Source: Dokdonella sp. (lineage in GTDB: Bacteria > Pseudomonadota > Gammaproteobacteria > Xanthomonadales > Rhodanobacteraceae). From it: DNA of 64,000 bases. Made by a program: the position numbers and the translations under genes. Location of the stretch: NCBI GenBank assembly GCA_024707225.1, contig JANQAE010000001.1:1364001-1428000 (forward strand), in the 5' to 3' direction. A model generated the notes under the pieces. That model made no database searches. It was given only the letters and a program-made list of their open reading frames with translations, and had not been told where the DNA came from. Numbering within the stretch: the first letter of the stretch is position 1; the number at the start of each line of letters is the position of its first letter. Shown piece by piece: positions 20,664 to 60,397 of this stretch.

Positions 20664-23531
20664 ATGCATTTCGATCAATCCAAGAAGGCGATGTTCGCCT
20701 GGCTGGCGTTGCTGCTGTTCGCGATCGGCAGCGCGCATGCCGCCGATACGCGCAGCTACTGGCAGGACGCGCAGGCCCGTCCGCTGGCCGCCGAAGCGCC
20801 GCAGCCGGCGGCCTACCGCGCACTGCAGCTGGACGTGGCCGGCCTCAAGGCCGCGCTGGCGGCGTCCGACGCGGCGCTGTCGCTGCCGCATCCGGACGGC
20901 GGCTTCGCCGACTTCACGCTGACCGATTCGGGCACGCTGCCGGCCGAGCTGGCCGCGCGCTATCCGCAGATCCGCAGCTACGTCGGCGTCGACGGCCGCG
21001 GCAACCGCGCCCGCATCGACGTCTCGCCGCTCGGCGTCAACGTCATGGTGTTCGAGCGCAGCAGCGGCCACGGCATCTGGGTGATCCGTCCGGACCTGCC
21101 CGGCGACGGCAGCGGCTACCTCAGCTTCTACCGCAAGGAACTGGCCGTGCCCGACGGCATGTTCAGCTGCGGCGTGCACAGCGAGATCGATCCGTCCGGT
21201 CAGAACCTGATCGATGCGCCGGCCACGCAGACCGGCGTCGTGCGGCGCACCTATCGCGCCGCCGTGGCCGCCAACCGCCAGTACACCAACGCCGTCGGCG
21301 GCGGCACGGTCGCCGGCGGCCTGGCCGCGGTGGTCGTCGCGATGAACCGCGTCAACGAGGTCTACGAGAACGACTTCTCGGTGCACATGACGCTGATCCC
21401 GAACAACGACCAGATCATCTACACCGACGCCAATCCGGGCCCGTACAGCAACAGCTCCAGCGCGATCAACCAGAACCAGACCAATCTGGACGCGGTGATC
21501 GGCAGCGCCAACTACGACATCGGCCACGTCTTCACGACCGGCAGCGGCGGTGTCGCCGGCCTCGGCGTGGTCTGCCGCGCCAACCAGAAGGCGCGCGGCA
21601 CGACCGGCCTGGGCAGCCCGCTCGGCGACGTGTTCTACATCGACTACGTCGCGCACGAGATGGGCCACCAGTTCGGCGGCAACCACACCTTCAATGCGAC
21701 CACCAGCAGCTGCGGCGGCGGCAACCGCGCCGCGTCGGCCGCCTACGAGCCGGGCAGCGGCTCGACGATCCAGGCCTACGCCGGCATCTGCGGCTCGCAG
21801 AACCTGCAGTCCAACTCCGATGCGTACTTCCACGCCGAGAGCCTGCGCGAGATGGGCAACTACATCAGCACCGGCGCCGGCGCCGGCTGCGCGGTGACCG
21901 CGGCCAATCCGAACACGCCGCCGATCGTGACCACGCATGCCGCACGCACGATTCCGGCCAATACGCCGTTCGAGCTGACCGGCGCGGCGAGCGGCGGCGG
22001 CAGCGGCCTGACCTACGCCTGGGAGCAGTACGACCGCGGCGCGGCCAACAACGACTTCAACGTCGATCCCGGCAACGGCCCGATCATCCGCTCGCTGATG
22101 CCGACGTCGAGCCCGAACCGCACCGTACCGCGGATCGACCAGCTGCTGGCCGGCACCCATCTGCGCGGCGAGATCCTGCCGACGACCAACCGCACGCTGA
22201 CGTTCCGGCTGACCGTGCGCGACAACGCCACCGGCGGCGGCATCACCGAGAGCGCCGACGTCGCGCACACGGTCGTCAACAGTGCCGGCCCGTTCACGGT
22301 CACCGGCCCGGCCGGCGGCACGACCTGGAACTACCTCGACGGTGCCGGCACCGGCAGCGTGAGCTGGAACGTCGCCAGTACCGACGTCGCGCCGGTCTCC
22401 TGCGCCGCGGTCGACGTCAAGCTCTCGCGCGACAGCGGCCTGACCTATCCGGTGACGGTCGCCACCGGCCTGCCGAACACCGGCAGCGCCACGGTGCCGG
22501 TGCCCAACGAGATCACCACGCAGGCACGTGTGCGCGTGCAGTGCTCGAACAACATCTTCTTCAACGTCTCGCCGGGCGACTTCACGATCGCCGGCGGCAG
22601 CGACGTGCTGTTCGCCGACGGTTTCGATGGTGCGGGCGGCCCGGTGCCGCCGACGCTGGCCAAGGCGTTCACGCCCGATACCGTGACCGCCGGCGCGACC
22701 AGCACGCTGACGATCACGCTCGGCAACGGCAATGCCACGCCGGCGACGCTGAGCGCGGCGCTGACCGACACCTTCCCTGCGGGCCTGGTCGTCGCGGCCA
22801 CGCCGGCCGCATCGACCACCTGCAGCGGTACGCTGAGCGCCGCGGCCGGTGCCGGCTCGATCAGCCTCGGCAGCGGGGCGGTGATTCCGGCCTCGGGCAG
22901 CTGCCAGGTCCAGGTCGACGTCAGCGCGGCCGCGGCCGGCAGCTACGTCAACACGCTGGCCGCCGGCGCGCTGCAGACCGACCTCGGCGCCAGCGCCGCT
23001 GCGGCGACGGCGACGCTGACGGTCACCGAAGGCACCGGCGCCTGCCCGGCCCAGCTGATCGAGGACACCAGCTTCGAGGCGACGACCGGCGATGGCGGTG
23101 CCAATCCGTTCTGGAACTCGACGACGACGCAGGGCGACTCCACCTTCTGGAGCACCGGCGGCGGCGCCACCGTGCGTACCGGCAGCTGGGCCGCGTGGTT
23201 CGGCGGCTACGGCACCGTGACCACCGAGACGCACGAGTTCTCGCAGACCGTGACGATCCCGGACGCCAGCGGCGCCACGCTGAAGTACTGGCGCAACATC
23301 GCCCGCACCGGCGCCAATACCAACACCGTCACCTTCAGCGTCGACGGCACCGTGCTGCGCACCGAGAACCTGGTGACGTTGGGCGTGTCGGGCTGGACCG
23401 AGCAGAGCCTGGACCTGTCGGCCTATGCCGACGGCCTGCCGCATCTGATCAAGGTCAGCTACACGCACAGCGGCGGCGGCCAGGACGCGAACTACTTCCT
23501 GGACGACATCACGCTCGACTGCAGTCCGTGA
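20664..23531 (+). CDS. Secreted reprolysin-like zinc metallopeptidase with C-terminal extensions
   Basis: A 955-residue exported protein with a signal peptide (MFAWLALLLFAIGSAHA). A propeptide-like region is followed by a catalytic domain with the zinc site HEMGHQFGGNH (His331, Glu332, His335, His341), an M12B/metzincin-type signature. Next come Ig-like or P-domain-like sequence, the motif LFADGFDG at about residues 649-656, a DUF11-like repeat (TLAKAFTPDTVTAGATSTL onward) and a terminal jelly-roll-like domain (ACPAQLIEDTSFEATTGDGG to YFLDDITLDCSP). The ATG at 20664 follows an ACGGGGA site. It ends just before a clear intrinsic terminator, so it is monocistronic. Substrates are unknown. Confidence 0.88.
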   Translation: MHFDQSKKAMFAWLALLLFAIGSAHAADTRSYWQDAQARPLAAEAPQPAAYRALQLDVAGLKAALAASDAALSLPHPDGGFADFTLTDSGTLPAELAARYPQIRSYVGVDGRGNRARIDVSPLGVNVMVFERSSGHGIWVIRPDLPGDGSGYLSFYRKELAVPDGMFSCGVHSEIDPSGQNLIDAPATQTGVVRRTYRAAVAANRQYTNAVGGGTVAGGLAAVVVAMNRVNEVYENDFSVHMTLIPNNDQIIYTDANPGPYSNSSSAINQNQTNLDAVIGSANYDIGHVFTTGSGGVAGLGVVCRANQKARGTTGLGSPLGDVFYIDYVAHEMGHQFGGNHTFNATTSSCGGGNRAASAAYEPGSGSTIQAYAGICGSQNLQSNSDAYFHAESLREMGNYISTGAGAGCAVTAANPNTPPIVTTHAARTIPANTPFELTGAASGGGSGLTYAWEQYDRGAANNDFNVDPGNGPIIRSLMPTSSPNRTVPRIDQLLAGTHLRGEILPTTNRTLTFRLTVRDNATGGGITESADVAHTVVNSAGPFTVTGPAGGTTWNYLDGAGTGSVSWNVASTDVAPVSCAAVDVKLSRDSGLTYPVTVATGLPNTGSATVPVPNEITTQARVRVQCSNNIFFNVSPGDFTIAGGSDVLFADGFDGAGGPVPPTLAKAFTPDTVTAGATSTLTITLGNGNATPATLSAALTDTFPAGLVVAATPAASTTCSGTLSAAAGAGSISLGSGAVIPASGSCQVQVDVSAAAAGSYVNTLAAGALQTDLGASAAAATATLTVTEGTGACPAQLIEDTSFEATTGDGGANPFWNSTTTQGDSTFWSTGGGATVRTGSWAAWFGGYGTVTTETHEFSQTVTIPDASGATLKYWRNIARTGANTNTVTFSVDGTVLRTENLVTLGVSGWTEQSLDLSAYADGLPHLIKVSYTHSGGGQDANYFLDDITLDCSP

Positions 23532-23598
23532 CGCGCGGGGCCGCGGCCCCCGATGATCCGCAGCGGCGGCCCGCACGGCCGCCGCCGCTCGAACCGGA

Positions 23599-23623
23599 GG
23601 CGGGGGAACTCCCCCGCCTTTTT
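23599..23623 (+). terminator. Intrinsic terminator after the metallopeptidase
   Basis: GGCGGGGG (23599-23606) and CCCCCGCC (23611-23618) form a perfect 8-bp stem with an AACT loop, followed directly by TTTTT. It is the clearest rho-independent terminator in the window. Confidence 0.9.
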
Positions 23624-23676
23624 CGTGCCCGCGGTTCGGGCACAATCGCGCCCGACCGTTCGAAAGGAGACGCCCG

Positions 23677-24864
23677 ATGCGCATCGCGATCACCCTGGCC
23701 CTGCTCTCGCTGGCCGGCTGCGGCGCCCGCCCTACCGGCCAGGCGCCGGCTGCCGCCGCCGAGGCGGGCGATGCGCCGCGTCTCCTCGCCGCGCCGACGA
23801 CCGAATCGATCGCCAGCGAAGACGGCCCGTACGGCCTGACCGAGCTGGTGACCGGCCTGTCGCATCCGTGGAGCCTGGCGTTCCTGCCGGACGGCCGCAT
23901 GCTCGTGACCGAACGACCGGGCCGCCTGCGCCTGATCGCCGACGGCGCCGTGTCGGCGCCGCTGGCCGGCGTACCGGCGGTCTATACCGAAGGCCAGGGC
24001 GGCCTGCTCGACGTCGCGGTCTCGCCGCGCTTCGCCGAGGACGGCTGGATCTACCTCTCCTACGCCGAAGCCGAGGGCGATCGCGCCGGCACCGCGGTCG
24101 CGCGCGCGCGCCTGGACGGCCAGGCCCTGCGCGATCTGACCGTGATCTACCGGCAGACTCCGAAGCTCTCCTCCGGCGCGCATTTCGGTTCGCGCCTGGT
24201 GTTCGACGACGCGGGCTTCCTGTTCGTGACGCAGGGCGACCACAACCAGCGCGCGATGGCGCAGGACCTCGACAAGCTGCAGGGCAAGCTGGTGCGCATC
24301 CGCCCCGACGGCAGCACGCCGGAGGACAATCCGTTCGTCGGCCGTCCGTATGCGCGCCCGGCGATCTGGTCGTACGGCCATCGCAACATGCAGGGTGCCG
24401 CTCTGCATCCGGTCACGCGCGCGCTGTGGACCAGCGAGCACGGTCCGCGCGGCGGCGACGAGCTCAACATCCCGCAGGCCGGCAAGAACTACGGCTGGCC
24501 GCTGATCACCTACGGCATCAACTACTCGGGCCTGCCGATCCCCGAGGCGCGCGGCGAAGCCGCCGACGGGCTCGAGCAGCCGCAGCACTACTGGAAGGTC
24601 TCGCCGGGTCTGAGCGGCATGGCGTTCCTGAGCGACACCGGATCGCCGTGGAACGGCAATCTGTTCCTCGGCGCGCTGGCGACGCGCGAGCTGATACGCG
24701 TCGAACTCGACGGCGACCGTGTCGTCCGCGACGAGCGTCTGCTCGGCGACCGCAAGTGGCGGATCCGCGACGTGCGCGAAGGACCGGACCGCAAGCTGTA
24801 TCTGCTGACCGACGAGGACGACGGCCGCCTGCTGCGCGTGGATCCGCCGCGCACGGCGTCGTGA
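23677..24864 (+). CDS. PQQ-dependent sugar (aldose) dehydrogenase family lipoprotein
   Basis: A 395-residue soluble glucose-dehydrogenase-like beta-propeller (YliI/Asd family), expected to oxidise aldoses in the periplasm with PQQ. The lipobox LLSLAGC places Cys15 at the processed N-terminus. Family segments include GLSHPWSLAFLPDGRMLVTER, EGQGGLLDVAVSPRF, SGAHFGSRLVFDDAGFLFVT, GHRNMQGAALHP, WTSEHGPRGGDELN and KNYGWPLITYGINYSG. AAAGGAG lies before the ATG. It is 49 bases upstream of the flavoprotein gene on the same strand. Confidence 0.9.
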   Translation: MRIAITLALLSLAGCGARPTGQAPAAAAEAGDAPRLLAAPTTESIASEDGPYGLTELVTGLSHPWSLAFLPDGRMLVTERPGRLRLIADGAVSAPLAGVPAVYTEGQGGLLDVAVSPRFAEDGWIYLSYAEAEGDRAGTAVARARLDGQALRDLTVIYRQTPKLSSGAHFGSRLVFDDAGFLFVTQGDHNQRAMAQDLDKLQGKLVRIRPDGSTPEDNPFVGRPYARPAIWSYGHRNMQGAALHPVTRALWTSEHGPRGGDELNIPQAGKNYGWPLITYGINYSGLPIPEARGEAADGLEQPQHYWKVSPGLSGMAFLSDTGSPWNGNLFLGALATRELIRVELDGDRVVRDERLLGDRKWRIRDVREGPDRKLYLLTDEDDGRLLRVDPPRTAS

Positions 24865-24913
24865 CCGCCTCGCCACGCACGCGCATCCGAACCGCCCCGC
24901 ACGCGCGCCGCTC

Positions 24914-26149
24914 ATGAGTGACGGCGTGGTGATCGTCGGCGGCGGTCCGGCCGGTCTGATGGCGGCCGAGGCCGCCGCATCCCGCGGCGTGCGGGTGGAC
25001 GTCTACGAGCGCATGGGCTCGGTCGGGCGCAAGTTCCTGCTGGCCGGCAAGGGCGGACTCAACCTGACCCATTCCGATCCGCGCGGCCGCTTCGACGCGC
25101 GCTACGGCGCGCGGCAGGCCGAGGTCGGCCGCTGGCTCGACGCATTCGACGCCGACGCGCTGCGCGGCTGGGCAGCCGCACTCGGTGTCGAGACCTTCGT
25201 CGGCAGCTCGGGGCGCGTCTTCCCGAGCGATCTCAAGGCAGCGCCGCTGCTGCGCGCCTGGCTGCGCCGGCTGCGCGCCGGTGGCGTCGCTTTCCACGTC
25301 CACCATCGCTGGCTCGGCTGGCATGCCGACGGCGCGCTGCGCTTCGCGGCGCCGGCCGGCGAGGTCGCCGTGTCGGGCGCGGCCACGGTGCTCGCGCTCG
25401 GCGGCGGCAGCTGGCCGGTGCTCGGCTCCGACGGCGCCTGGCTGCCGCTGCTGCGCGCGCGCGGCGTCGCGACGGCCGATCTCGCGCCGGCCAACTGCGG
25501 CTTCGACGTCGACTGGTCGACGCATTTCGCCGAACGGCACGCCGGCGCGCCGCTCAAGCCGGTCACGGTGTTCTGGCGCGATGCCGACGACGTCGAACAG
25601 CATCTGCAGGGCGAATGCGTCGTCACTGCCGGCGGCATCGAGGGCAGCCTGATCTACGCGATCTCGGCGACGCTGCGCGAACAGGTGGCCGCGCACGGGC
25701 ACGCGAGGATCGCGCTCGATCTGGCACCGGGGCGCAGCGAGGAGCGCCTCGCGCGCGATCTCGCGCGGCCGCGCAACGGCCGCTCGCTCGCCGAGCTGCT
25801 GCGCCGCCAGGCCGGCATCGGCGGCGTCAAGGCCGGCCTGCTGCGCGAATGTCTGGACGCGGCGGGACTGGCCGATCCGCAGCGGCTGGCCGCGGCGATC
25901 AAGCGCCTGCCGATCGTGCTGCGCCGGCCGCGTCCGCTCGCCGAGGCGATCAGCACGGCCGGCGGCGTCCGCTTCGACGCCCTGCGCGAAGACCTGATGC
26001 TGTCCGCCCTGCCCGGCACGTTCTGCGCCGGCGAGATGATCGACTGGGAAGCGCCGACCGGCGGCTATCTGCTGACCGCGAGCTTCGCCAGCGGCCGCAT
26101 CGCCGGTGCGGGCGCGGCCGACTGGGCGCAGGTGCGCGAGCGCGCCTGA
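24914..26149 (+). CDS. FAD-dependent oxidoreductase, HI0933/BaiN-like family
   Basis: A 411-residue flavoprotein with the FAD-binding Rossmann motif VVIVGGGPAGLMAAEAAASRG and the family signature GRKFLLAGKGGLNLTHSD. Others are FVGSSGRVFPSDLKAAPLLRAWL, VLALGGGSWPVLGSDG, and the C-terminal FAD site GTFCAGEMIDWEAPTGGYLL. This matches the TIGR03862-type branch of HI0933 proteins. The substrate is unknown; relatives reduce organic compounds such as bile-acid intermediates in other organisms, which should not be assumed here. Confidence 0.87.
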   Translation: MSDGVVIVGGGPAGLMAAEAAASRGVRVDVYERMGSVGRKFLLAGKGGLNLTHSDPRGRFDARYGARQAEVGRWLDAFDADALRGWAAALGVETFVGSSGRVFPSDLKAAPLLRAWLRRLRAGGVAFHVHHRWLGWHADGALRFAAPAGEVAVSGAATVLALGGGSWPVLGSDGAWLPLLRARGVATADLAPANCGFDVDWSTHFAERHAGAPLKPVTVFWRDADDVEQHLQGECVVTAGGIEGSLIYAISATLREQVAAHGHARIALDLAPGRSEERLARDLARPRNGRSLAELLRRQAGIGGVKAGLLRECLDAAGLADPQRLAAAIKRLPIVLRRPRPLAEAISTAGGVRFDALREDLMLSALPGTFCAGEMIDWEAPTGGYLLTASFASGRIAGAGAADWAQVRERA

Positions 26150-26371
26150 CGCCAGCCGAGCCCGGGCGGCGCCTGCGCACCGGCGGCCCGAGGCAAGCCA
26201 TCGGACGGCGCCCGATGCCGAACAGCCGCGGCCGTTCGTGGCGCGATCGTCGGCGTCCGCGATAGGCGCGCGCTGCCTTCGGCGACGCCACCCGCCGCGA
26301 GCGGTCGCGGCCTCAGCGCCGCTCCCTCGGGCGAAGCGCATCGGAGCCTGCGCACGATCGAGCGCATCGGA

Positions 26372-27304
26372 TCAGTAGATCGGCGGTTCGCCGGGCGGCC
26401 GCGTCTTGAAGCGCTTGTGGATCCACAGGTACTGCGCCGGCGCCTCGCGCACCATCCGTTCGATCGCCTGGTTGATGCGCGCGGTGTCGGCGACCGGATC
26501 GGCGCTCGGGAAGTCTGCCAGCGGCGCCTCCAGCCGCAGCGCGTAGCCGCCGCCGGGCAGGCGCCGATGGAAGAACGGAATCACGACCGCGTCGCCGAGC
26601 CGCGCCAGATGATGCGTGGCGGTGATCGTCGAGGCCGGTACGCCGAAGAACGGCACGAAGACGCTGTCCTTGCCGCGCATGTCCTGGTCCGGCGCGTACC
26701 AGATCGTGCCGCCGTCGCGCAGGTAGCGCACGGTCTGCCGGATCGCTTCCTTGGTGAACATCGTCACCGCGTAGCGCAGGCGCGCGCGCAGCACCGCGCG
26801 TTCGAACACCGGATCGTCCATGACGCGGTACATGCCGGCGATGCGCAGCCGCTGCGAGACCAGCCGCGCGCACAGCTCCAGATGCGAGAAATGCGCGCCG
26901 ACCAGCAGCACGCCGCGGCCGGCGCGATGTGCGGCCTCCAGATGTTCGAGACCGTCCAGCGTCATCGGCACGCGCGCCAGCGCGCGGTCGGTGCCCATCC
27001 AGGCCAGCGCGAACTCGGCCAGCATGCGGCCGCTGTCGCGCAGGTTCTCCTCGAGCAGGGCCGCACGTGCGTCCTCGCCCAGTTCCGGAAAGCAGATCGC
27101 CAGATTGCGCTCGGCGATGCGCCGCCGCGAGCGCAGCGTGCGCGCGGCCAGATGGCCGGCCGCGCCGCCGAGCGCGAGCAGGACGCGGTACGGCAGGCGC
27201 GCGATCAGCCAGATCGCGCCGACGCCGATCCAGGACAGCCAGTGACGCGGATGCGCCAGCGACGGCGAAGGCCGAGGCGGCGGAGAATGGGAAGCGGCAG
27301 TCAT
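26372..27304 (-). CDS. lpxL: Lipid A biosynthesis lauroyl acyltransferase (LpxL/HtrB family)
   Basis: A 310-residue inner-membrane late acyltransferase that adds a secondary acyl chain to Kdo2-lipid IVA. It has an N-terminal hydrophobic anchor (WIGVGAIWLIARLPYRVLLAL), the active-site HX4E in GAHFSHLELC, and the conserved GGTIWYAPDQDMRGKDSVFVPFFG. The end QYLWIHKRFKTRPPGE is a family signature. It diverges from waaA, the preceding enzyme of Kdo2-lipid A assembly, so the two probably share the 149-base promoter region. Confidence 0.92.
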   Translation of the reverse strand: MTAASHSPPPRPSPSLAHPRHWLSWIGVGAIWLIARLPYRVLLALGGAAGHLAARTLRSRRRIAERNLAICFPELGEDARAALLEENLRDSGRMLAEFALAWMGTDRALARVPMTLDGLEHLEAAHRAGRGVLLVGAHFSHLELCARLVSQRLRIAGMYRVMDDPVFERAVLRARLRYAVTMFTKEAIRQTVRYLRDGGTIWYAPDQDMRGKDSVFVPFFGVPASTITATHHLARLGDAVVIPFFHRRLPGGGYALRLEAPLADFPSADPVADTARINQAIERMVREAPAQYLWIHKRFKTRPPGEPPIY

Positions 27305-27453
27305 CCGCGTCGATTATCGCCGCGGTCCGCCGCGGCGGATAGCGTCCGTGCGCGATCGCCACGGCCCCGCCTCACGACCGGCCTCGTCCGCGCGACGGCC
27401 GCGACCACGGGCGGCAGCCGATATACTCGCCGTCCACCGAACGCCTCCGACCC

Positions 27454-28764: not shown

Positions 28765-28765
28765 A

Positions 28766-30151: not shown

Positions 30152-30196
30152 CGGTGGGTCTTCCTGGGGGAATCGTGTCGCGCGCCGCGCGCCGCT

Positions 30197-37989: not shown

Positions 37990-38934
37990 CTAGCCGGGAT
38001 CGAAGCCCGACGCGAAGAGGCGCTCGTCGAGCAGGCCGACGTCGAGCAGCAGCGCGCGGTCGAGCGCCGACAGGCCGTAGCGCGTGCCGCGGTAGAACAC
38101 GACGCCGTTCATCAGCTCGTCGATCAGGCCGCCTGCGCCGCGCAGCGCGGCATCGCCCGAAGGCGGCGCGTCGCGTGAGGGCGGCAGTTCGCAGGCCTTC
38201 CACGGCACCGGCGCACCGTCGCGCCACGCGACCGGCAGCGCTGCCCGCACCGCGACGGTCGTCGTGCCGGCATTGCCCCAGTGCTTGTTGTTGCCGGTCG
38301 TCAGATCCGGCGCGCTGCCCCAGCTGAGGCTCGAGGCCGGCCCTGCGAACAGCGTCGGCGTGCCCGGCTGCATCCAGCGGTCGAACGTCGACCAGTACGT
38401 GGCCGGCGGCGCGCCGCTGGTCGGATCGGACCAGCCGTTGTAGGCCAGGACATGACCCCATTCGTGCAGGAACACGCTCATCGCGTCGGTGCGATCGGCC
38501 GGTACCGGCGCGGCACGTGCCAGCGGATCGGGATCGAACCAGAGCTCGTCGCGCAGGTAGGCCAGACCGATGTTGACGATCGCGTCGGCTTGCGCGCCGT
38601 TGACGTCGACGCCGGTGCGCAGCTCGTAGGCGGCGCCCTGCTCGTAGGTGTCGCGCCCGGCGACGACGCCGACCGGAGCCGTCGCGACGCTCGCGCCGTT
38701 CGCGGTCGCGATCGGCGCGATGCCGACGCGCACGTCGATCGTGACCGGACGCGTGATACCGAGCGCCACGGCCCAGAGGCGGCCGGCCGCGACCAGATGT
38801 GAACCGATGTCGGCACGCTCCTGCACGGTCAGCATCGATGCGGACGCGTCGAAGCCGACCTGCACGATCGGCTGCGCGCCGGCCGATGCGGCCGCGAACG
38901 TGAAGGCACCGGCCATGACCAGACAAACGCGCAT
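37990..38934 (-). CDS. Exported putative zinc metalloprotease (HEWGH) with F-x-S-G-F-D tail
   Basis: A 314-residue protein with a signal peptide (MRVCLVMAGAFTFAAASAGAQ). The motif SVFLHEWGHVLAYNG is a zincin HEXXH site. The rest (QVGFDASASMLTVQERADIG at the start, NGVVFYRGTRYGLSALDRALLLDVGLL at the end, given in parts) resembles the bacterial secreted proteases annotated as NF038122-like; this match is from memory. It ends RLFASGFDPG, sharing a tail motif with three other exported proteins in the window. It stands alone between the riboswitch leader and topoisomerase IB. Confidence 0.7.
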   Translation of the reverse strand: MRVCLVMAGAFTFAAASAGAQPIVQVGFDASASMLTVQERADIGSHLVAAGRLWAVALGITRPVTIDVRVGIAPIATANGASVATAPVGVVAGRDTYEQGAAYELRTGVDVNGAQADAIVNIGLAYLRDELWFDPDPLARAAPVPADRTDAMSVFLHEWGHVLAYNGWSDPTSGAPPATYWSTFDRWMQPGTPTLFAGPASSLSWGSAPDLTTGNNKHWGNAGTTTVAVRAALPVAWRDGAPVPWKACELPPSRDAPPSGDAALRGAGGLIDELMNGVVFYRGTRYGLSALDRALLLDVGLLDERLFASGFDPG

Positions 38935-42942: not shown

Positions 42943-44612
42943 TCATCTCGACTCGAATGCGTCCGCGAAGATCCGGTCCGCCGGAACGGCGACCTGCAGC
43001 TCGTACGCACCGATGTCGCAGCGGCCGCCCTGATCGGGGCGCGGATGATCGATGCAGCGCGGCATCAGCGCGAGATCGAGCTCCTCGTGATCGACCGGTT
43101 CGGCCGCGCAGGCGTCGACGAGCGGACCGTCGGCGCGCGGCCGGTAGTCGCCGGCCGCTGCTTCGGCGAACATGTCCGCCGTCACCGCGCGGTTGCACAC
43201 GCCGTACTGCGACAGCCCGCCGCTCGCCGGCAGCGGGTCGGCCGTCGCGATCGCGTCGACCGCGTAGTGCCAGCGATCGCCGCCGCCGAGCGCGGACGTC
43301 GCATCGGCCGGAAACGTATCGGCACCGCGCACCTCGACATTGCGTGCGAACGTCACGAACGACAGCCGCGCCGCGCCGGCACCGCACCGACGCGCGAGGC
43401 ATAGGAAATCACGCGGCGGCCGGTGTAGTTGGCGCCCTCGCGCCAGGTCAGCCGGTTGCCGGCGACCAGCACGCCCTCCAGGTCGAGCTGCGTACCCCAG
43501 CTGATCGCGCCCGGACTGCCCCAGGCGCAGTTGTCGATCAGCGCGAGCTGGCGCAGCGTGGCGCGCGTGTCGGCCTCCAGATACAGGCCGCCGCCCTCGC
43601 CGCGCGTGCCGGGGCAGCCGTCGCCGGCCTGGTTGCCCTCGATCCGCGCGCAATCCGCGCCGCTGCACTGCACCGCGAAGACGTTCGAGTAGCTGCGCTG
43701 CATGCGCACCTGCGCGCCGCCGCTCGCGTAGAGGCCGCCGCCGGCCTCCTCGGCATGGTTGAACGAAAGCGCGAGCTCGTGCGCGTCGAACAGGGCGCCG
43801 GCCTCGAGGTGGACGCCGCCGCCGCGCTGCGCGGCATTGCCGGTGATGCGCGCGCCGGTCGCGTCGTGCTGGACGTCCGGCTCGCCGACGCTGCCGATGC
43901 CGATCGAACCGCCGACCGCGGCCAGGCCGCCGCCGCGCGCGGCGCGGTTGCCGCCGATCTCGGTCCGGTCGGCGCGGATGCGCGCGCTCGCGCGCTCCAG
44001 ATAGACGCCGCCGCCGGCCTGGCCGGCCACGTTGCCGGCGATGCGGACGCCGGCGTGCAGTTCGAGCACACCGGCCAGATTCGTGCCGGCCAGCGCGATG
44101 CCGCCGCCGTTGCCGTCGACGCGGTTGTCGAGCACCTCCACGTCCTGCAGCACGAGGCGGACGCTGCCGGCCGCATCGATGCCGCCGCCGTGCCCGTCCG
44201 CACCGCCGCTGCCGTCGCGGATCACCAGACGCCGCAGTGTGACGTCGGTATAGAGGCCGTCGGCACGGACCCGCAGCACCGCGTCGGTGCCGGGCGCGCC
44301 GGCCTCGTGGCCGCCGATCAGCGCAGTCGCGCCGACCGGCAGCGCATCGGCCGCGCAGCTGGCCCAGCCGCCCGAGACGGTGACCGACTGCTGCTCGACG
44401 CGCAGGCGTTGCAGCGTGTGCTCGGCCGCGACGAGGCGGATCTCGTCCTCCTCGGGCCCGTTGGCGGCGGCCGCATCGAGCGCGTCCTGAACCCGGACGT
44501 GGCTGCAGTCGGCCCCGGGGCCGACCGTGAACACCGCGGCCGCGGCCGGGCCGGCGGCGAGGACGCAGGCGGCGGCGAACAGCCGGCCGCGCGAAAAAAC
44601 CTGGAACGACAT
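42943..44612 (-). CDS. Exported parallel beta-helix protein (frameshifted) with F-x-D-A-F-E tail
   Basis: A protein of about 556 residues. The signal peptide (LFAAACVLAAGPAAAA) is followed by CSHVRVQDALDAAAANGPEE, typical of right-handed beta-helix exoproteins (pectate-lyase-like or polymorphic outer-membrane type). Repeats of the form G-N-x-A-x-x-x-G-G-G-[VL]-x-[LA] recur (RIAGNVAGQAGGGVYLE, RITGNAAQRGGGVHLE). Near 43386 the frame shifts, and the remainder ARLSFVTFARNVEVRGADTF to the end IGAYELQVAVPADRIFADAF-ESR is in the second frame. No catalytic residues are recognisable, so adhesion or carbohydrate binding is as likely as lyase activity. Confidence 0.75.
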
Positions 44613-51242: not shown

Positions 51243-51934
51243 ATCTCGCGATCGAGCCGCTCGGCGAACGGATGCTGCTGCTGCGCTTCGGCGACCGGAT
51301 CGAGCTCGCGTCGAACGCGCAGGTGCACGCGGCCGCCGCGGCGCTGCGCGCGGCCGCCCTGCCCGGCGTCGACGAGCTGATTCCGGCCTATGCGACGCTC
51401 GGCCTGCGCTATCGCCCCGAGGCCTGGCTCGACGCCCGGCGCGCGCCGTGGCAGGCCCTGGCCGAGGCGGTGCGCTTGCAGCTCGCCGATCTCGCGCCGG
51501 CCGTTGCCGTCGCTGCGCGCCTGGTCGAGATTCCGGTCTGCTATGCGCCGCCGTACGCGCCCGACCTCGACCACGTCGCCGCGCACGCCGGTCTCGACGC
51601 CGACGCGGTGATCGCACGCCACAGCGGCACGACCTATCGCGTCGCGATGCTCGGCTTCGCGCCGGGCTTTCCGTATCTGCTCGGCCTGGACGCCGCGCTG
51701 CACACGCCGCGCCGTGCCGATCCGCGGCTGCGCGTGCCGGCCGGCGCGGTGGCGATCGGCGGTGCGCAGACCGGCATCTATCCGCGCGAGCTGCCGGGCG
51801 GCTGGCAGATCATCGGCCGTACGCCGCTGCGGCTGTTCGATCCGGCGCGGTCGCCGGCAGCCCTGCTCGCCCCCGGCGACCAGGTCCGTTTCCGGCCGAT
51901 CGATGCGTCCGCGTTCGAGGCGGCCGCGCGATGA
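51239..51934 (+). CDS. pxpB: 5-oxoprolinase subunit PxpB (KipI family)
   Basis: A 231-residue subunit of the ATP-dependent enzyme that opens 5-oxoproline to glutamate. It starts at GTG 51239. Family features are AYATLGLRYRPEAW, IPVCYAPPYAPDLDHVAAHA, VAMLGFAPGFPYLLGLDAAL, RVPAGAVAIGGAQTGIYPRE and GWQIIGRTPLRLFDPAR. The next gene's ATG overlaps its TGA (ATGA). Confidence 0.93.
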   Translation: MNLAIEPLGERMLLLRFGDRIELASNAQVHAAAAALRAAALPGVDELIPAYATLGLRYRPEAWLDARRAPWQALAEAVRLQLADLAPAVAVAARLVEIPVCYAPPYAPDLDHVAAHAGLDADAVIARHSGTTYRVAMLGFAPGFPYLLGLDAALHTPRRADPRLRVPAGAVAIGGAQTGIYPRELPGGWQIIGRTPLRLFDPARSPAALLAPGDQVRFRPIDASAFEAAAR

Positions 51935-52887: not shown

Positions 52888-53642
52888 CCCTGCGTATCGA
52901 TCTGAATGCCGACATCGGCGAGTCCTACGGCGCGTGGCGGATGGGCCACGACGCCGAGGTGCTGCGCGAAGTCAGCTCGGTCAACGTCGCCTGCGGCTTC
53001 CACGCCGGCGATCCGTCGACGATGCGCGCGACCGTGCGCGCGGCGATCACACACGGCGTCGCGATCGGCGCGCATCCGTCGCTGCCGGACCTGCAGGGTT
53101 TCGGCCGGCGCGAGATGGCGATCTCGCCGGACGACGCCTATGCCCTGGTCGTCTACCAGACCGGCGCGCTGGCCGGCTTCGCCGCGGCCGCCGGCGGCCG
53201 GCTCGCCCACGTCAAGCCGCACGGCGCCTTGTACAACATGGCCGCGCGCGATCCGGCGCTGGCCGACGCGATCGCCGCCGCGGTGCACGACGTCGACCGC
53301 CGCCTGATCCTGGTCGGCCTGGCCGCCAGCGCCTTGACCGAGGCGGCGTCGCGCGCCGGCATCCCGGTCGCCCACGAGGTGTTCGCCGACCGCCGCTACG
53401 AGGCCGACGGCTCGCTGACGCCGCGCAGCCATCCCGACGCGGTCATCCACGATCTGGACATCGCGATCGTGCAGGTGGTCGCGCTGGCGACGCGCGGCGA
53501 GGTGACGACGCGGACCGGCGAGCGGCTGCGCCTGGCCGCCGACACGATCTGCCTGCACGGCGACCGGCCCGATGCCGGCCTGGCCGCGCAGCGGATCCGC
53601 AGCGCATTGACCGAAGCCGGCGTGACCGTCGCGCCGCTGTAG
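52884..53642 (+). CDS. pxpA: 5-oxoprolinase subunit PxpA (LamB/YcsF family)
   Basis: A 252-residue TIM-barrel-like subunit that completes the 5-oxoprolinase complex. DLNADIGESYGAWRMGHDAE, VNVACGFHAGDPSTMRATV, IGAHPSLPDLQGFGRREMAI, HVKPHGALYNMAARD and TICLHGDRPDAG are all diagnostic. It is the last gene of the operon. The common order elsewhere is pxpA-pxpB-pxpC or pxpB-pxpC-pxpA; here it is B-C-A. Confidence 0.95.
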   Translation: MTLRIDLNADIGESYGAWRMGHDAEVLREVSSVNVACGFHAGDPSTMRATVRAAITHGVAIGAHPSLPDLQGFGRREMAISPDDAYALVVYQTGALAGFAAAAGGRLAHVKPHGALYNMAARDPALADAIAAAVHDVDRRLILVGLAASALTEAASRAGIPVAHEVFADRRYEADGSLTPRSHPDAVIHDLDIAIVQVVALATRGEVTTRTGERLRLAADTICLHGDRPDAGLAAQRIRSALTEAGVTVAPL

Positions 53643-53740
53643 ACGGCGGCGACCGGGTCACGCACCGGCGGGGGCGCGGCGACCAGGATCGCGCGCTGCC
53701 CGCCCGGCCGGTGCAAGCGCCGCGGCCGCCACACGCGGCG

Positions 53741-55066
53741 TCAGTCCGGCGCCGGCGCCAGCGAGGACACCAGCAGCCGGTCGATGCGGCGGCGGTCCAT
53801 GTCGACGACCTCGAAGCGCAGGCCGCCCCAGTCGAAATGATCGCCGACCGACGGAATCCGGCCGAGCCGGTCGAGCACCAGGCCGCCGAGCGTGTGATAG
53901 CCCGAGCGCGGATCGGGCGGCGGCGTGCCCGGGAAGATCGTCTGCAGGCGTTCGATCGGCAGCCCGGCATCGAGCAGCCAGGAGCCGTCCTCGCGACGCA
54001 CGGCCTCGTCCTCCTCGTCGCCCGAGGACGCCCACGGCAGGTCGCCGACGATCGCCTCGAGCAGGTCGCTCAGCGTGACCATGCCTTCCAGGCCGCCGTA
54101 CTCGTCGACGATCAGCGCGACCGTCGTGCGGCGGCGCCGGAACGCCTCGATCAGCTGCATCGGCGAGATCGACTCGGGCACGAACACGGCCGGCTGCGCC
54201 ATGCCCTCGATGTCGAGCTCGGCGCCGGCCAGGGCATTGCGCAGCACGTCCTTGGCGTACAGCACGCCGATCACCTGGTCCAGGCCGTCGCGACAGACCG
54301 GCCAGGTCAGGTAATGCGCGCTGGCGAGCTTGTCGCGGTTGACCTGCGGCGGATCGTCGAGGTCCAGATAGGCGATGTCCGGCCGCGGCGTCATGATCGC
54401 GGTCACGCGCAGATCGTCGAGGCGGAACACGTTGCCGACCATCGTCTGCTCGGCGTGCTCGAACACGCCGGCCTCGGTGCCCTCCTTGAGCATCGACTTG
54501 ATCTCCTCCTCGGTCACCGGCGGCTCGTTGGAGTCGCGGGCGCCGAGCAGGCCGAGCAGGAACGTGCTCGACAGGCTGAACAGGCGCACCACTGGATAGG
54601 TCAGCCGCGACAGCCAGTGCATCGGCGCGGCGATCAACGAGGCGATCGTCTCCGGATACTGCAGCGCGAAGCGCTTGGGCACCAGCTCGCCGAGCACGAC
54701 CGACAGGTAGGTGATGATCGCGACCATCGCCACGGTCGCCAGCGCCTTGCTGTACGGCGCGATCAGCGGGTACTGGTCGAACACGGTGATCAGCCGTTCG
54801 GCGATCGCGTTCTCGCCGAATGCGCCGCTGAGGATGCCGATCGTCGTGATGCCGACCTGCACGGTCGACAGGAAGTTGCCGGGATCCTGCGACAGCCGCA
54901 GCGCCATCCGCGCGCCGCCGCTGCCGGCGTCCGCGCGCTGCTGCAGCCGGGCCCGCCGCGAGGACACGATCGCGATCTCGGACATCGCGAACATGCCGTT
55001 GACGAGGATCAGGCCGAGCAGGATCAGAAATTCCACAGGACACGCCGGCAGCCGAGGGACGGCCAT
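53741..55066 (-). CDS. CNNM/CorC-HlyC family transporter-like protein
   Basis: About 441 residues. DUF21 domain at the N-terminus (FLILLGLILVNGMFAMSEIA, with the conserved Asn-Gly and Ser-Glu), GNFLSTVQVGITTIGILSGA, FGENAIAERL and LSVVLGELVPKRFALQYPE. Next comes a CBS pair (IMTPRPDIAYLDLDDPP, VGVLYAKDV-type) and a CorC/HlyC C-domain (IVDEYGGLEGMVTLSDLLEAI, GYHTLGGLVLDRLGRIP). Members relate to Mg2+/Co2+ efflux or, historically, hemolysin; the substrate is unproven. ATG 55066 is chosen; ATG 55135 and GTG 55036 are alternatives. It is divergent from lptD. Confidence 0.85.
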   Translation of the reverse strand: MAVPRLPACPVEFLILLGLILVNGMFAMSEIAIVSSRRARLQQRADAGSGGARMALRLSQDPGNFLSTVQVGITTIGILSGAFGENAIAERLITVFDQYPLIAPYSKALATVAMVAIITYLSVVLGELVPKRFALQYPETIASLIAAPMHWLSRLTYPVVRLFSLSSTFLLGLLGARDSNEPPVTEEEIKSMLKEGTEAGVFEHAEQTMVGNVFRLDDLRVTAIMTPRPDIAYLDLDDPPQVNRDKLASAHYLTWPVCRDGLDQVIGVLYAKDVLRNALAGAELDIEGMAQPAVFVPESISPMQLIEAFRRRRTTVALIVDEYGGLEGMVTLSDLLEAIVGDLPWASSGDEEDEAVRREDGSWLLDAGLPIERLQTIFPGTPPPDPRSGYHTLGGLVLDRLGRIPSVGDHFDWGGLRFEVVDMDRRRIDRLLVSSLAPAPD

Positions 55067-55158
55067 CTTAGGGGGCGCGGGCCGGCCTTGTCGCGGCGCA
55101 ACGGACGGTTTGCCGCCGCCGCGCGGATTGGGCAAGCTACGCCACTGCCCTTCTTTCC

Positions 55159-57475
55159 ATGAAGACGGTCTCCGTGCCGACTACCCGCTCAGTCCTGTTC
55201 CGCGCGCATCCGCTCGCGCTGGCCGTCGCCTTCGCGCTGCCCGCCGCCGCCCAGCCGCCCGACGCCGCGCCCGACGCGGTGCCTTCGGCGATCTCGGCCG
55301 CCACCCCGTCGTGTCCGATCGGGGCGCTGCGCTGCGCGCCCCGCAAGGCCGACTGGTCGCTGTGCAAGCCGGGCGACCTGTTCGATTTCTACGTGCCGGA
55401 CCTGCCGCGCGACGGCGACCGCGACGCTGCGCCGACCGACATCACGGCCCAGAACAGCCGCTCGACCGACGGCAACCGCTTCGAGCTGCAGGGCCAGGCC
55501 CGCGTGCAGCAGCACGACCAGCTGATCCGCGCCGACGCCTTCAGCTACGAACGCGACACCACGGCCTGGACCGCCGAGGGCCACGTCCGCTATCAGGACC
55601 GCAGCCTGCTGCTGTCGGCCGACCCGCGGCGCCGGCCGCACCGAGCCGAGCCAGAGCACGCTCGAGAACGTGCGCTACCAGCTGATCGACGCGCGTGGCA
55701 ACGGGGCGGCCGCGACCGCGACGATGCCGGACCAGACCCACGCGCATCTGACCCAGTCCACGTTCACGACCTGCGACCTGGACGCGCCGCAATGGCATTT
55801 CGCGGTGCGCGACCTGACGCTGGACCAGGACGAGGGCGTCGGCCGCGGCCGCGACGTGACGTTCCACATCGGCGACGTGCCGGTGTTCTGGCTGCCGTAC
55901 GCGCGCTTCCCGCTCGACGACCGCCGCGTGTCGGGCTTTCTCTATCCGACGATCGGCTACAGCAACCAGCGCGGTTTCGACCTGACGCTGCCGTACTACC
56001 TCAACCTCGCGCCGAACTACGACGCCACGCTGTATCCGCGCCTGATGACGCACCGCGGCCTGATGCTCGGCGGCGAATTCCGCTATCTGACCGCCGGCAG
56101 CAACGGCGAGCTCGACTTCACCTACCTGCCCGACGACCGCGACGCCGATCGCGACCGCGGCCTGTTCCACTGGCGCAACGCGACCGTGTTCAACGCCAAC
56201 TGGGGCGCCAGCATCGATCTGAACCATGCCTCGGACGACCGCTATTTCGAGGACTTCGGACGCAGCCTCAACATGGCCGCGACCAGTCTGCTGCCGTCCA
56301 GCGCCTATCTGAACGGCCGCGGCACCTGGTGGACCGCCAGCTTCGGCGCGGACCGCTACCAGATCACCGATCCGGAGCTACCCGGCATCGCCGAACCGTA
56401 CCGCCGCCTGCCGCGCGCGACGTTCGAGGGCGAGAAGGCGCTGTTCGGCGGCCTGGACTGGGGCGTCAAGTCCGAGTTCGTCGCGTTCAGCAAGGACGAT
56501 GCGCTCGACGGCCAGCGCCTGGACCTGTATCCGTATCTGGCCTACCCGATCGAGCGCGCCGGCTGGTTCGTGCGACCGGAGATCGGCTACCGCCACACGA
56601 CCTACAACCTGGACCGCGACCGCAACGACACGCCCGATCGCGGCGTGCCGATCTACAGCCTCGATGCCGGCCTGATCTTCGAGCGCGGCTTCACGCTCGG
56701 CGACCACGCCTGGACGCAGACGCTCGAGCCGCGCCTGTACTACCTGCGTGTGCCGTACCGCAACCAGGACGACATCCCGATCTTCGACACGCAGATCGTG
56801 CCGTTCTCGTTCGGCCAGATGTTCCGCAGCAATGCCTTCGTCGGCGCCGACCGTCAGGCCGACGCGAACAACCTGACGCTGGCGCTGACCACGCGCGTGC
56901 TCGACGACGCGACCGGCGATGAGCGGCTGTCGGCCAGCGTCGGCCAGATCCGCTACTTCGACGAGCAGCGCGTGCAGCTGCCGGGCGTGGCGCCGACCGA
57001 CTGGAACGGCTCGGCCTATGTCGGCAACCTGACGCTGAGCCTCAATCCGCGCTGGCGCCTGACCGTCGACCAGCAGTGGAATCCGAACAGCGACCGCACC
57101 GATCTGTCGGCGGTCGGCGTGCAGCACCGCTTCGGCGCCGAGGGCGTGCTGAACCTGTCGTACCGCTTCCGCCGCGGCTTCATCGAGCAGGCCGACGCCT
57201 CGGCGCTGATCCCGATCGGCACGAACTGGCGCATCGTGGCGCGCAACAACTACTCGCTCAACGAGAGCAAGACGCTCGAACGCTTCGTCGGTCTCGAGCG
57301 CGACAGCTGCTGCACGGCCTGGCGCGTGATCGCGCGCGAGTGGGTGCGCAACGTCGAGGGCGAGCTCGACAAGGCGCTGTTCTTCGAAATCGAGTTCAAG
57401 GGCGTCGGCGCGTTCGGCCAGCGCAGCGAGGACTTCCTGACGCGCGCGGTGCGCGGCTACCAGTCGCGCTGGTAA
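55159..57475 (+). CDS. lptD: LPS-assembly protein LptD (frameshifted)
   Basis: Outer-membrane channel that inserts LPS with LptE. The first frame has a signal peptide (ALAVAFALPAAAQ), a Cys pair (SCPIGALRCAPRKADWSLC) and the OstA/LptA-like region FELQGQARVQQHDQLIRADA. Near 55628-55632 the frame shifts and continues LENVRYQLIDARGNGAAATA, FTTCDLDAPQWHFAVRDLTL and the LptD barrel (LPYARFPLDDRRVSGFLYPT, RLMTHRGLMLGGEFRYLT, FVGLERDSCCTAWRVIAREW with its paired Cys). The end is KGVGAFGQRSEDFL then a short tail. Essential in most relatives, so the frameshift is probably a sequencing error. surA, pdxA and ksgA, the usual downstream genes, are absent. Confidence 0.92.
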
Positions 57476-57533
57476 GCGGCCTACGGCGCGGCTGCCTCGC
57501 GATCGCCTCATCCGCTGGCGCGGCGGCCGAGAA

Positions 57534-57562
57534 CGCGCCCGTACTGTGTCGGCACGGGCGCG
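57534..57562. terminator. Inverted repeat between convergent genes, possible terminator
   Basis: CGCGCCCGT (57534-57542) pairs with ACGGGCGCG (57554-57562), 9 bp with an 11-base loop, midway between the ends of lptD and the convergent phytase-like gene. Without T-runs its strength as a terminator is uncertain. Confidence 0.45.
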
Positions 57563-57571
57563 TCGGTTCGC

Positions 57572-60397
57572 TCAGTACGCGTCGAATCCGTCGCGGAACA
57601 GCACCTCGGCCAGGCTGTACAGCGTGGTCGTGCCGCTGATCTCGTTGGCGACCGCGATCATCGCCTCACCGGTCGGGCTGTCGGCCGCCGGAATGAAGAC
57701 GATGCCCTCCGGACCGAGGTCACCGGCTGCGTCCGGCGCCGCGTCCAGATCGACGACGACGCTAAAGTCGCGGTTGTTGACGTAGCCGGCGAACGTCGCC
57801 GCATACGGATCGGTCACGTCGAACACCGCGATGCCGCCGATCCGCTCCAGGCCGACGAATGCGTAGGTGCGGCCGTTCGGCAGCGTGCCGACAGCCAGCG
57901 CCTCGGGCTCCGGCCCCTTGTTGTCGCTGCGCGAGTCGAAGCTCTGGTTGGCCTCGTTGTCGGCGTTGAAATCGGCCGGATGGCGCACCGCGGTGACCTG
58001 CTCGAGCAGGTCGCCGGAGTCGAACACGAGATTGCCGTATTGATCCCAGATCGCCATCGAGCGGCTGCCGAGGATCTGCAGACGGTCGAAGTCGCCGTCG
58101 CCGTCGAGATCGCCGTCGATCGTCGAGGCGTTGAGGCGGCCGAGCTGCGCATTGGCCTGCAGCGCGGCCGCATCCGGGAATGCGGCCGGATCGAGGTCGA
58201 GACCGGCGATGCGCGCGACCTCGCCGCGATCGTCGCCCTCGCCGGCGCTCGCGTAGAACGTGCGACCGCCGGCGCTGAACGCGGCGATCGAATCGGCCAT
58301 GTGCATGCCGTAGACCGGCCACTGACGGATGTCGATCGAAGGACCGTCGCGGTCGGACGCGTCCAGGCCCGACGGCGTGTCGAAGCTGAGCAGGCCGAGC
58401 TGGATCGGCGTGGGCTGCGCGTCGAGCGGCACGCTGCCGTCCGGCGGTATCGGCAGCGGCTGCGGCGCGATGCCGAAGTCGTTGTCGTTGATCAGCGCCA
58501 GGCGGCCGTCCGGCAGCGCGGCCAGGCCCTCGAGCTTGTCGCCGAGGTGGTAGCCCAGCGACGGCAGGTTGCCGACCTTGAGCTTGGACACCGCGCGGAT
58601 GCCGGCCGCGACCAGATCGTCCGGCGTGTGCTGCTCGAGCGTCCTGCCCGGCAGCAGCGCCGGTGCGCCGGCCGCACGCAGATTGGTCGCGCCGGTCAGC
58701 ATGAACTCGAACAGCATCTTCTTGCCGCTGCGCTCGACCGAATCGTCGCGCTCGACGATCGCGAAGCGGCCGCCACCGAGGTACGCCGCATCGCCGATCT
58801 TGTCGGTGTTCTGCTCGCGAAAGCCGGTCTTGTCGATCAGATAGACGTACTCGGCCACGACCTCGCCGCTGGCCGGGTCGATGCCGAGCATGCGGATGAC
58901 CTTCGAGGCATTGCTGGCCGCCGTGTTCGGGTTCGCCAGCGGCGTCTGGATGAACGCGTAGAGCACGCCGGCATCGGTATCGAGCGCCATGCCCTCGAAG
59001 CCGCGGTTCGGGCGGCGCCTGGCGTACTCGGCCGGCAGCGTCTCGCGGCCGTAGTGGCCGACCGGCTGGCCGCCGAGCGCGGCCGTGCCGGCCGGCACCA
59101 GGCGATCGATCAGACGGCCGTCGGCGCCGACGTGGTAGATCGCCGGCCGGTACTCGTCGACCATCCAGTAGCTGCCGTCCGGCGCGACGACCAGGCCCTC
59201 GATGTCGGCGCCGAGCGGATCGAGCGGCAGCGGCTGCCCGTTCAGATCGACCGGCTCCTCGTCGACGCCGCCGCCGATGTTCGGCAGGCCGGTCATCGGT
59301 GTGACCCCGTCGGCCTGGAACAGCATCAGCTGCTGGCCGAGCGCGATCGCGCCAGTCGCCGGATCGAACGTGAAGCGCACGATGCGCGGCTGATAGTCCG
59401 GCAGCACGAACGGCCGCTCGAGCACGCCGTCGCCGTCGACATCGGTCGGCTCGCCGTTCGGGCCGCGGTCCGGCACCGTCACGAACCTCATCAGGCCGCT
59501 GCTCGCCTCGACACCCTCGAACCACAGACCCGAGAAGCCGCCGAGCCGGATCGTCTGACCGGCCGGCGTCGTGCCGAGCACCGGCAGCGGCGGGAAGTCG
59601 TGCGTCTCCACGCGCGGCAGACCGCGGCCGTGGTCCTTGAGGCCCGCCGCGACGATGTCGAGGATCTCGGCCTTGGCCAGATCGACCACCGCGAACGCAT
59701 TGGCCTCCTGCAGCGAGACGAACGCGACGGCGCCGTCCGGCGCGGCCGCGATGTACTCAGGCTCCAGGTCGACGCTGGCCGCGCGCCCCGGAAACACGCG
59801 CACGCCCTTGGCGCGCAGCTCGGCCTCGCGGCCGTCGAACGCGCCGAAGCCGACCGTCGTCGCGGTCGCCTGCGCGACGCCGGCCGCCAGATCGACGATC
59901 GTCACCGAGCCCGGCGGATCGAGCGCGTCGACCGGCTCGCCCTCGTCGGCCGACATCAGATAGCGGCCGTCCGGACTGAAGCTGACGTGGTCCGGCAGCA
60001 CGCCGGCCGGGAACGTGCGCAGGTGCTGGCCGGCCGTGTCGAACAGCGCGATCGCACCGGCCTGGGTGCCGTCCGCGGCCGGCAGGGCCGCCGCGAGCAG
60101 GCCGTTGCGGACCGCCACGCTGGTCAGGCTGCCGCCGTAGGGCGAGACGTCGATGCTGAAGGCCAGCGCCGGTGCATCGGGATCGGCGACGTCGAGCACG
60201 TCGATGCGATCGGTCGCGCCGTTGGTCACGAACAGGCGCCGCGTCGCGGCGTCGTAGGCGACGATCTCGGCGCCGGCGGTGACGCCGGAGCGGTAGGTAC
60301 CGTGCTGGCGCAGCGCGATCGGTTCGGCCGCGGCGATCGTGGCCAGCGGCAGCAGGGCGGCGAGAATCGCCGCGGACAGGCGCGAGGGCGAGTGCAT
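57572..60397 (-). CDS. Exported esterase-like/phytase-like protein (choice-of-anchor I type)
   Basis: A 941-residue exported protein with a signal peptide (LSAAILAALLPLATIAAAE). The first third is a beta-propeller of choice-of-anchor I type (IVAYDAATRRLFVTNGATDR, HVSFSPDGRYLMSADEGEP, LEPEYIAAAPDGAVAFVSLQ). The middle is an esterase-like phytase domain (PVLGTTPAGQTIRLGGFSGL, FEGVEASSGLMRFVTVPDRG, ADIEGLVVAPDGSYWMVDEY, NRGFEGMALDTDAGVLYAFI). The last third returns to propeller sequence (PEPEALAVGTLPNGRTYAFV) and ends EVLFRDGFDAY. Phosphatase or phytase activity is plausible but untested. ATG 60397; a GTG 12 bases earlier is an alternative. Confidence 0.82.
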   Translation of the reverse strand: MHSPSRLSAAILAALLPLATIAAAEPIALRQHGTYRSGVTAGAEIVAYDAATRRLFVTNGATDRIDVLDVADPDAPALAFSIDVSPYGGSLTSVAVRNGLLAAALPAADGTQAGAIALFDTAGQHLRTFPAGVLPDHVSFSPDGRYLMSADEGEPVDALDPPGSVTIVDLAAGVAQATATTVGFGAFDGREAELRAKGVRVFPGRAASVDLEPEYIAAAPDGAVAFVSLQEANAFAVVDLAKAEILDIVAAGLKDHGRGLPRVETHDFPPLPVLGTTPAGQTIRLGGFSGLWFEGVEASSGLMRFVTVPDRGPNGEPTDVDGDGVLERPFVLPDYQPRIVRFTFDPATGAIALGQQLMLFQADGVTPMTGLPNIGGGVDEEPVDLNGQPLPLDPLGADIEGLVVAPDGSYWMVDEYRPAIYHVGADGRLIDRLVPAGTAALGGQPVGHYGRETLPAEYARRRPNRGFEGMALDTDAGVLYAFIQTPLANPNTAASNASKVIRMLGIDPASGEVVAEYVYLIDKTGFREQNTDKIGDAAYLGGGRFAIVERDDSVERSGKKMLFEFMLTGATNLRAAGAPALLPGRTLEQHTPDDLVAAGIRAVSKLKVGNLPSLGYHLGDKLEGLAALPDGRLALINDNDFGIAPQPLPIPPDGSVPLDAQPTPIQLGLLSFDTPSGLDASDRDGPSIDIRQWPVYGMHMADSIAAFSAGGRTFYASAGEGDDRGEVARIAGLDLDPAAFPDAAALQANAQLGRLNASTIDGDLDGDGDFDRLQILGSRSMAIWDQYGNLVFDSGDLLEQVTAVRHPADFNADNEANQSFDSRSDNKGPEPEALAVGTLPNGRTYAFVGLERIGGIAVFDVTDPYAATFAGYVNNRDFSVVVDLDAAPDAAGDLGPEGIVFIPAADSPTGEAMIAVANEISGTTTLYSLAEVLFRDGFDAY

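Follow-up and report, generated by a model that had tools for sequence, protein, structure and literature searches.

A short C-terminal tail on unrelated exported proteins of Dokdonella and its co-distribution with one type II secretion system

Introduction

What lets the type II secretion system (T2SS) distinguish its substrates from the other proteins of the periplasm is still unsettled and, to our knowledge, no universal linear signal is known for them. Here we analyse a 64,000-nucleotide stretch of DNA from Dokdonella sp. (GenBank assembly GCA_024707225.1, contig JANQAE010000001.1, positions 1,364,001 to 1,428,000; hereafter the window, with its coordinates counted from its first letter) in which four exported proteins of different kinds share a short F-x-[DS]-[GA]-F-[DE] motif. 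We follow this motif through the genome from which the window comes (G000; 4.37 Mb in four contigs) and through related genomes. The lack of a linear universal T2SS signal was still stated by authors in 2025 (PMC12369372).

Several described systems resemble the one considered here. GlyGly-CTERM, the partner of rhombosortase, is a C-terminal tag on secreted proteins that is linked to T2SS in Vibrio cholerae according to three papers (PMC3237569, PMC6219818, PMC12369372) and, like the Dokdonella tail, it occurs on many proteins per genome and is present in some genomes and missing from their relatives. Its Gly/Ser-rich motif, however, comes with a hydrophobic region and with positive residues, and our tail has none of the three. 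MYXO-CTERM, the tag of myxosortase, also marks dozens of proteins per genome and is tied to T2SS-linked surface display (PMC11980579), but it requires a transmembrane helix and an Arg-rich end besides an invariant Cys, and all three are missing here. The type IX secretion system likewise places a C-terminal export label on diverse proteins; that label is a beta-sandwich domain (PMC4804311), whereas the present one has about nine residues that are predicted to be disordered. Finally, T2SS substrates can be recognized through the PDZ domain of GspC (EpsC-VesB, OutC-PelI), a domain also carried by the GspC of the T2SS of interest in the window's genome; in the examples of PMC12369372 this recognition proceeds via folded domains.

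Results

A six-frame search of the window for F-x-[DSN]-[GAS]-F-[DE] gave exactly four matches, all in the four genes named by the original prediction and at the places it gave. Three of them (at 38016, 42969 and 57598 on the minus strand) lie exactly two residues ahead of a stop codon and are thus C-terminal, as had been claimed. The first belongs to a HEWGH-type exported protease (37990..38934, minus strand) ending in RLFASGFDPG, with the tail LFASGFDPG at 37993..38019; a Pfam scan gave no match for this protein and NCBIfam matched a metalloprotease family only below cut-off. The phytase-like/choice-of-anchor I exported protein (57572..60397, minus strand; Pfam Phytase-like and choice_anch_I) ends in VLFRDGFDAY, with the tail LFRDGFDAY at 57575..57601. 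The third C-terminal copy ends a beta-helix-type gene in RIFADAFESR (tail IFADAFESR at 42946..42972). This gene had been taken for a single frame at 42943-44612 and proved to consist of two minus-strand open reading frames (ORFs), a signal-peptide-like ORF of 419 amino acids (43353..44612), for which Pfam and NCBIfam scans gave no match, and an ORF for the C-terminal part with a DIGAYE stretch and the tail (42943..43356). Since the two are in different frames, either a frameshift has occurred in the gene or the assembly is wrong at this point. The fourth copy, LFADGFD (22608..22628, plus strand; LFADGFDG with the next residue, motif match at 22611), is internal to an M12B reprolysin-like metallopeptidase (20664..23531, plus strand; Pfam Reprolysin_4 at residues 193-392). 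It stands at about residue 650 of 955, 300 residues short of the end, and is followed by DUF7933 (663-787) and an end that we labelled jelly-roll-like by eye. The idea that these domains were added behind an earlier C-terminus is consistent with five further internal copies in the genome.

Across the genome of the window the DNA pattern TTYNNNRRYGSNTTYGA, which encodes F-x-[DNSG]-[GA]-F-[DE] and misses the serine codons TCN, matched 106 times compared with 5 for the reversed control pattern. We read 100 of these matches, the HEWGH protease of the window not being among them, and classed them by rules of our own. In 73 the motif is preceded by I, L or V and followed by a stop after 0-18 residues (0-4 residues in 62 of them), five stand after a signal peptide, six lie inside exported proteins, and we judged the other 16 spurious or of unclear status. 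C-terminal enrichment throughout the genome, the check proposed with the original prediction, is thus strong. Shuffling the C-terminal 25-mers of 371 called genes gave an expectation of 0.016 motif matches, which together with the 106 against 5 pattern matches excludes a chance origin. The 73 tails have the consensus [DE]-x-[ILV]-F-x-[DNS]-G-F-[DE], then 0-4 residues and a stop. Three places ahead of the first F stands D (47) or E (18) and immediately ahead I (40), L (25) or V (8); the third motif place is D (50), N (16), S (6) or G (1), the fourth G (71) or A (2), the next F in all 73 and the last D (37) or E (36). Variant ends outside the pattern also occur (FASSFE, FADDFE, FRDGFGG), so the true number of tails is above these 73; by our extrapolation about 100 proteins of this genome are tagged.

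Some carriers are arranged unusually. Seven pattern matches in seven frames, of which the seventh (699792) is perhaps spurious, lie within 18 kb (locus L051, contig C2, 682127-700000), and three of them share near-identical ends beginning ALYRHRL. Where the tail is longer, one or two cysteines are often found past the motif (L015, L048, L049, L060, L121; for example IFLDGFELCAGCPSH and IFKDSFECVPALCP). On contig C2 a DUF1800 protein carries the motif straight after its signal peptide (L046) and a DUF1501 protein, about 190 kb away, carries it at the C-terminus (L043). In three other genomes (G045:C70, G041:C124, G058:C58) match pairs exactly 39 bases apart, seen as pattern positions, suggest tandem tags.

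As many as 106 matches in one genome might also come from a repeated DNA element, an uptake sequence or mobile repeat that incidentally encodes a peptide. Yet most matches share one frame just ahead of a stop, codon choice in the motif departs from background only modestly, at G (p 0.002) and at one of the D positions (p 0.004), and among the 73 core 18-mers 53 are distinct. The near-background codons and the diversity of the 18-mers indicate selection on the peptide and not on the DNA. As the DNA word itself is not conserved we rejected a DNA-level repeat or uptake sequence, and give such an element a negligible probability.

To call signal peptides we used a scoring rule of our own, not SignalP, with an identical start rule for carriers and background genes. 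Signal-peptide-like starts marked 47 of 73 carriers; in the background set they marked 125 of 367 genes (p 2.8e-6). Under a stricter score the counts were 29 of 73 and 81 of 367 (p 0.003). The expected enrichment among signal-peptide proteins is therefore present and moderate, and the Sec or Tat signal peptide typical of T2SS substrates appears here as this enrichment. Together with the C-terminal enrichment it supports the earlier proposal of an unnamed sorting, anchoring or processing signal, although sorting is our interpretation of it. The 74 carriers scanned include, among the matches listed (the first 25 families of 65 and 83), subtilases, reprolysins, FG-GAP, kelch, HAF, delta-60 and beta-helix proteins, and Pfam adds DUF1501. 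NCBIfam found choice-of-anchor domains Q, D and I in nine, three and one of them. Choice-of-anchor domains are named for preceding varied sorting signals. A DUF1501 carrier starts with RRDFLK, which we take to resemble a twin-arginine signal.

In AlphaFold2 models of two carriers most of the body has a pLDDT above 70 and the tail is predicted to be disordered, with values below 50 at residues 459-469 of the DUF1501 protein and 932-941 of the phytase-like protein of the window, the body of which is mostly above 85. The predicted disorder in both models argues against a folded C-terminal domain, a candidate that we discarded. The motif might instead need no receptor and serve its carrier directly, packing on it as a final strand or stabilizing element. 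Its alternating hydrophobic residues could form a strand, but an identical motif on unrelated families, the predicted disorder and the two-state distribution between related genera described below make this very unlikely.

We scanned 61 of the 73 tails against NCBIfam and Pfam at E values up to 10, and neither database returned a sorting model for the tail. In NCBIfam choice_anch_Q, matched in six, is the domain before the tail, and three families had single weak matches, one of them a family of MYXO-CTERM-anchored proteins (E 0.0091); in Pfam DUF5608 was matched in two (best E 0.098). For these 61 tails this bears out the statement that the motif has no named domain, and searching the open-licence literature with six motif strings found no paper describing such a tag.

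The original prediction had also considered processing. A sortase-like enzyme could cleave or ligate near the [DNS]-G bond; the near-invariant [DNS]-G-F core would suit it, as would the many carriers per genome and the two-state distribution, both of them features of other C-terminal sorting signals. The 73 tails end so soon after the motif, however, that most leave no room for a membrane helix, and a hydrophobic helix with a basic end as in GlyGly-CTERM does not follow it. Variants have R, S, D or A in place of G, copies are also found between domains, and the five copies near signal peptides weigh against strictly C-terminal processing in particular. The co-occurring enzyme that had been proposed as a check was sought with the rhombosortase profile TIGR03902 in 48 genomes. 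The best match in the window's genome had 51 bits against a cut-off of 84, and the four genomes over the cut-off were G033, G047, G016 and G122, the last a genome of family f8 with 10 motifs. The motif-rich genomes tested that have the T2SS discussed below were all under it (G024, with 56 motifs, at 80.1 bits). We thus rejected rhombosortase as a general partner, and regard C-terminal processing as rather improbable.

Strict motif counts, obtained with the pattern TNTTYNNNRAYGGNTTYGA, were 47-81 in 10 genomes of the window's genus. Of the other genera in its family 22 of 25 had 0-2 matches, the remaining three having 33 (g14), 56 (g16) and 128 (g26), and counts stayed at 0-5 in a sample of 229 genomes that belong to the class but not to the order. 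Within the order genomes carry either dozens of motifs or almost none. In the low-count genomes G041, G044, G045, G051 and G054, 16 of 19 matches were near a C-terminus; in G011, G016, G019, G025, G029 and G052 none of 11 ended a gene-sized frame. A relaxed search for F-x-[DN]-x-F-[DE] in motif-poor genomes gave (matches/control) G018 12/3, G033 3/0, G042 6/3, G052 11/7, G053 19/6, G056 6/3, G071 6/1 and G090 6/3.

Searching 51 genomes for GspD revealed two kinds of full GspD, types A and B. All 19 type-A rows of a 38-row tree formed one clade (96/91) apart from type B. They represent 18 genomes with at least six strict motifs, plus G044, which has 2 strict and 62 relaxed matches. Outside the type-A clade, and far from type B, fell G033 and a sequence of family f2 (G056). 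When rows from f8 and G116 were added in a second tree, the clade comprised 23 rows (87/96); it took in G116, and G411 grouped outside it, close to G033. Neither of these two outgroup-type genomes, G411 and G033, has the motif. The motif-poor genera of family f1 have full GspD of the type-B-like kind only, except G033. The genes of T2SS-A are gspC-gspD-gspE, to which several genomes add gspF, and they often lie close to rhlB/trxA/rho or ftsE/ftsX (names assigned by eye). GspC, GspD and GspE of G000 match their profiles, GspC falling below the NCBIfam cut-off and above those of Pfam for T2SSC and PDZ_2. Adjoining gspE of this system is a gene for a choice-of-anchor Q protein ending in IFRDGFGG (L255, contig C2, 12735-13475, minus strand). 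In the T2SS operon of the outgroup G033 (L260, C47:11000-30900) a rhombosortase gene adjoins gspC and a second rhomboid-like gene lies ahead of the pseudopilins. With rhombosortase beside gspC and no motif, G033 hints at a related T2SS that uses a different tag. Another genome of the order, the 4.7 Mb G053 (family f9, genus g41), gave no match at all in the GspD search and has no strict motif.

Type A was called in 200 genomes of the order from profile matches with E up to 1e-100, except for ten f2 matches of 449-564 bits, of which G056 alone was placed in a tree. At least ten strict motifs were present in 66 of 94 genomes with type A, a set that includes G411 and several contig-edge fragments, and in 5 of the 106 lacking it (Fisher 3.8e-24); counted by genus the proportions were 28 of 34 and 2 of 35 (p 2.7e-11), both p-values being inflated by kinship among genomes. 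Within f2, G116 alone is motif-rich (65 matches) and alone gives a strong type-A match (930.8 bits), and its GspD is in clade A; the others have 0-2 motifs. Of the 28 type-A genomes below ten strict motifs 19 are in genus g35, where the relaxed search found six of seven genomes rich (62/5, 105/5, 43/4, 43/2, 32/0 and 37/6 matches/control) and G115 not (9/7). One match read per genome was C-terminal in four of the seven (FSDRFD, FFDAFE and FRDRFE twice) and internal in three. Genus g35 may be Wenzhouxiangella, a genus that NCBI places in Chromatiales. Five genomes have at least ten motifs and no type A (G079, G370, G375, G092 and G122), the first three being drafts from genera in which other genomes carry it.

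Homologues show how the tail comes and goes. The nearest named relatives of the window's choice_anch_I protein are in Dokdonella metagenome-assembled genomes (MAGs), at 80% and 71% for the best-matching segment, which makes Dokdonella, of the order Lysobacterales, the very probable genus. The tail is kept in these MAGs and in G005 and G058, whereas homologues of G050, G066 and a Lysobacterales MAG end in IFNSSFE and those of other phyla in other C-terminal stretches, some of which we take to be type IX, PEP-CTERM, IPTL-CTERM or dockerin-like. Comparing DUF1501 homologues by eye at 30 loci (L345 and L357 uncounted), we found the tail in 11 of 22 from type-A genomes, with three degenerate and eight without, and in two of six from genomes without type A (G092 and G122 of f8), with one degenerate and three without (G064, G027, G104). 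To judge from these sequences the tail is an add-on that is gained or lost at a fixed place.

Discussion

A flexible tag on unrelated exported proteins that is portable in the chain and largely tracks one T2SS is most simply the export tag of that system, a reading to which we give an even chance. The consensus tail would be a short, flexible and exposed address tag. After crossing the inner membrane via Sec or Tat, tagged proteins would fold in the periplasm, where T2SS-A, most plausibly through its periplasmic GspC/GspD parts, would read the tag and so commit the protein to exit through the secretin, for release or to the cell surface. Recognition by T2SS-A, the component that binds and the final location of the proteins are what we infer from the position, predicted flexibility and peptide-level conservation of the tag and from its co-distribution with T2SS-A.

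Besides the kinship mentioned above several observations weigh against this reading. Only about four concordant transitions were counted (f1, f2, g33 of f8, and G053 of f9) and the genes profiled across genomes were gspD and that of rhombosortase. G108, G378 and G115 have type A and little motif. In f8 there are exceptions in both directions. G092, G122, G374, G383 and G406 have 7-15 strict motifs (7-9 in the last three) with T2SS-B only, and relaxed matches/control of 48/8 in G092, 19/4 in G122 and 36/13 in G374. T2SS-B as the sole reader was rejected because the motif-poor f1 genera carry it too, and the f8 exceptions keep it partly open. The DUF1501 family is mixed on both sides and by itself is no proof of a T2SS-A link, and the signal-peptide enrichment shrank under the fair start rule, which some carriers fail.

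The tail could instead dock on an outer-membrane or surface receptor for retention or assembly, T2SS-A merely travelling along with large exported proteomes. The choice-of-anchor domains among carriers, the other endings of choice_anch_I homologues in other phyla, the low-copy motifs of f8 genomes lacking T2SS-A and the copies near signal peptides and between domains would all suit such a tag. Wenzhouxiangella AB-CW3 released no protease activity to the medium according to one report (PMC7691419), the bearing of which is uncertain given the placement of this genus. Against this stand the fit of T2SS-A to much of the motif distribution and the failure of our two-gene profiling to yield a candidate receptor gene, and we consider a surface receptor unlikely, if well worth keeping in mind. 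By analogy with MYXO-CTERM the tail may also hold proteins at the surface after export by T2SS-A, and both may be true.

If T2SS-A is indeed the reader, we would tentatively propose this as the first linear and portable T2SS signal: a flexible tag of nine residues that works at the C-terminus, after a signal peptide or between domains, routes up to about 100 folded, mutually unrelated proteins of a genome through a single dedicated T2SS and has lineage dialects, such as a fourth-place R instead of G, that evolve together with the secretion system. Even with a surface receptor as reader the tails would form a large sorting class outside the descriptions of NCBIfam and Pfam. If the export reading is true, T2SS recognition would become testable with peptides and grafts, the tail could serve as a portable export tag, and the exported proteomes of the order would be predictable from sequence.
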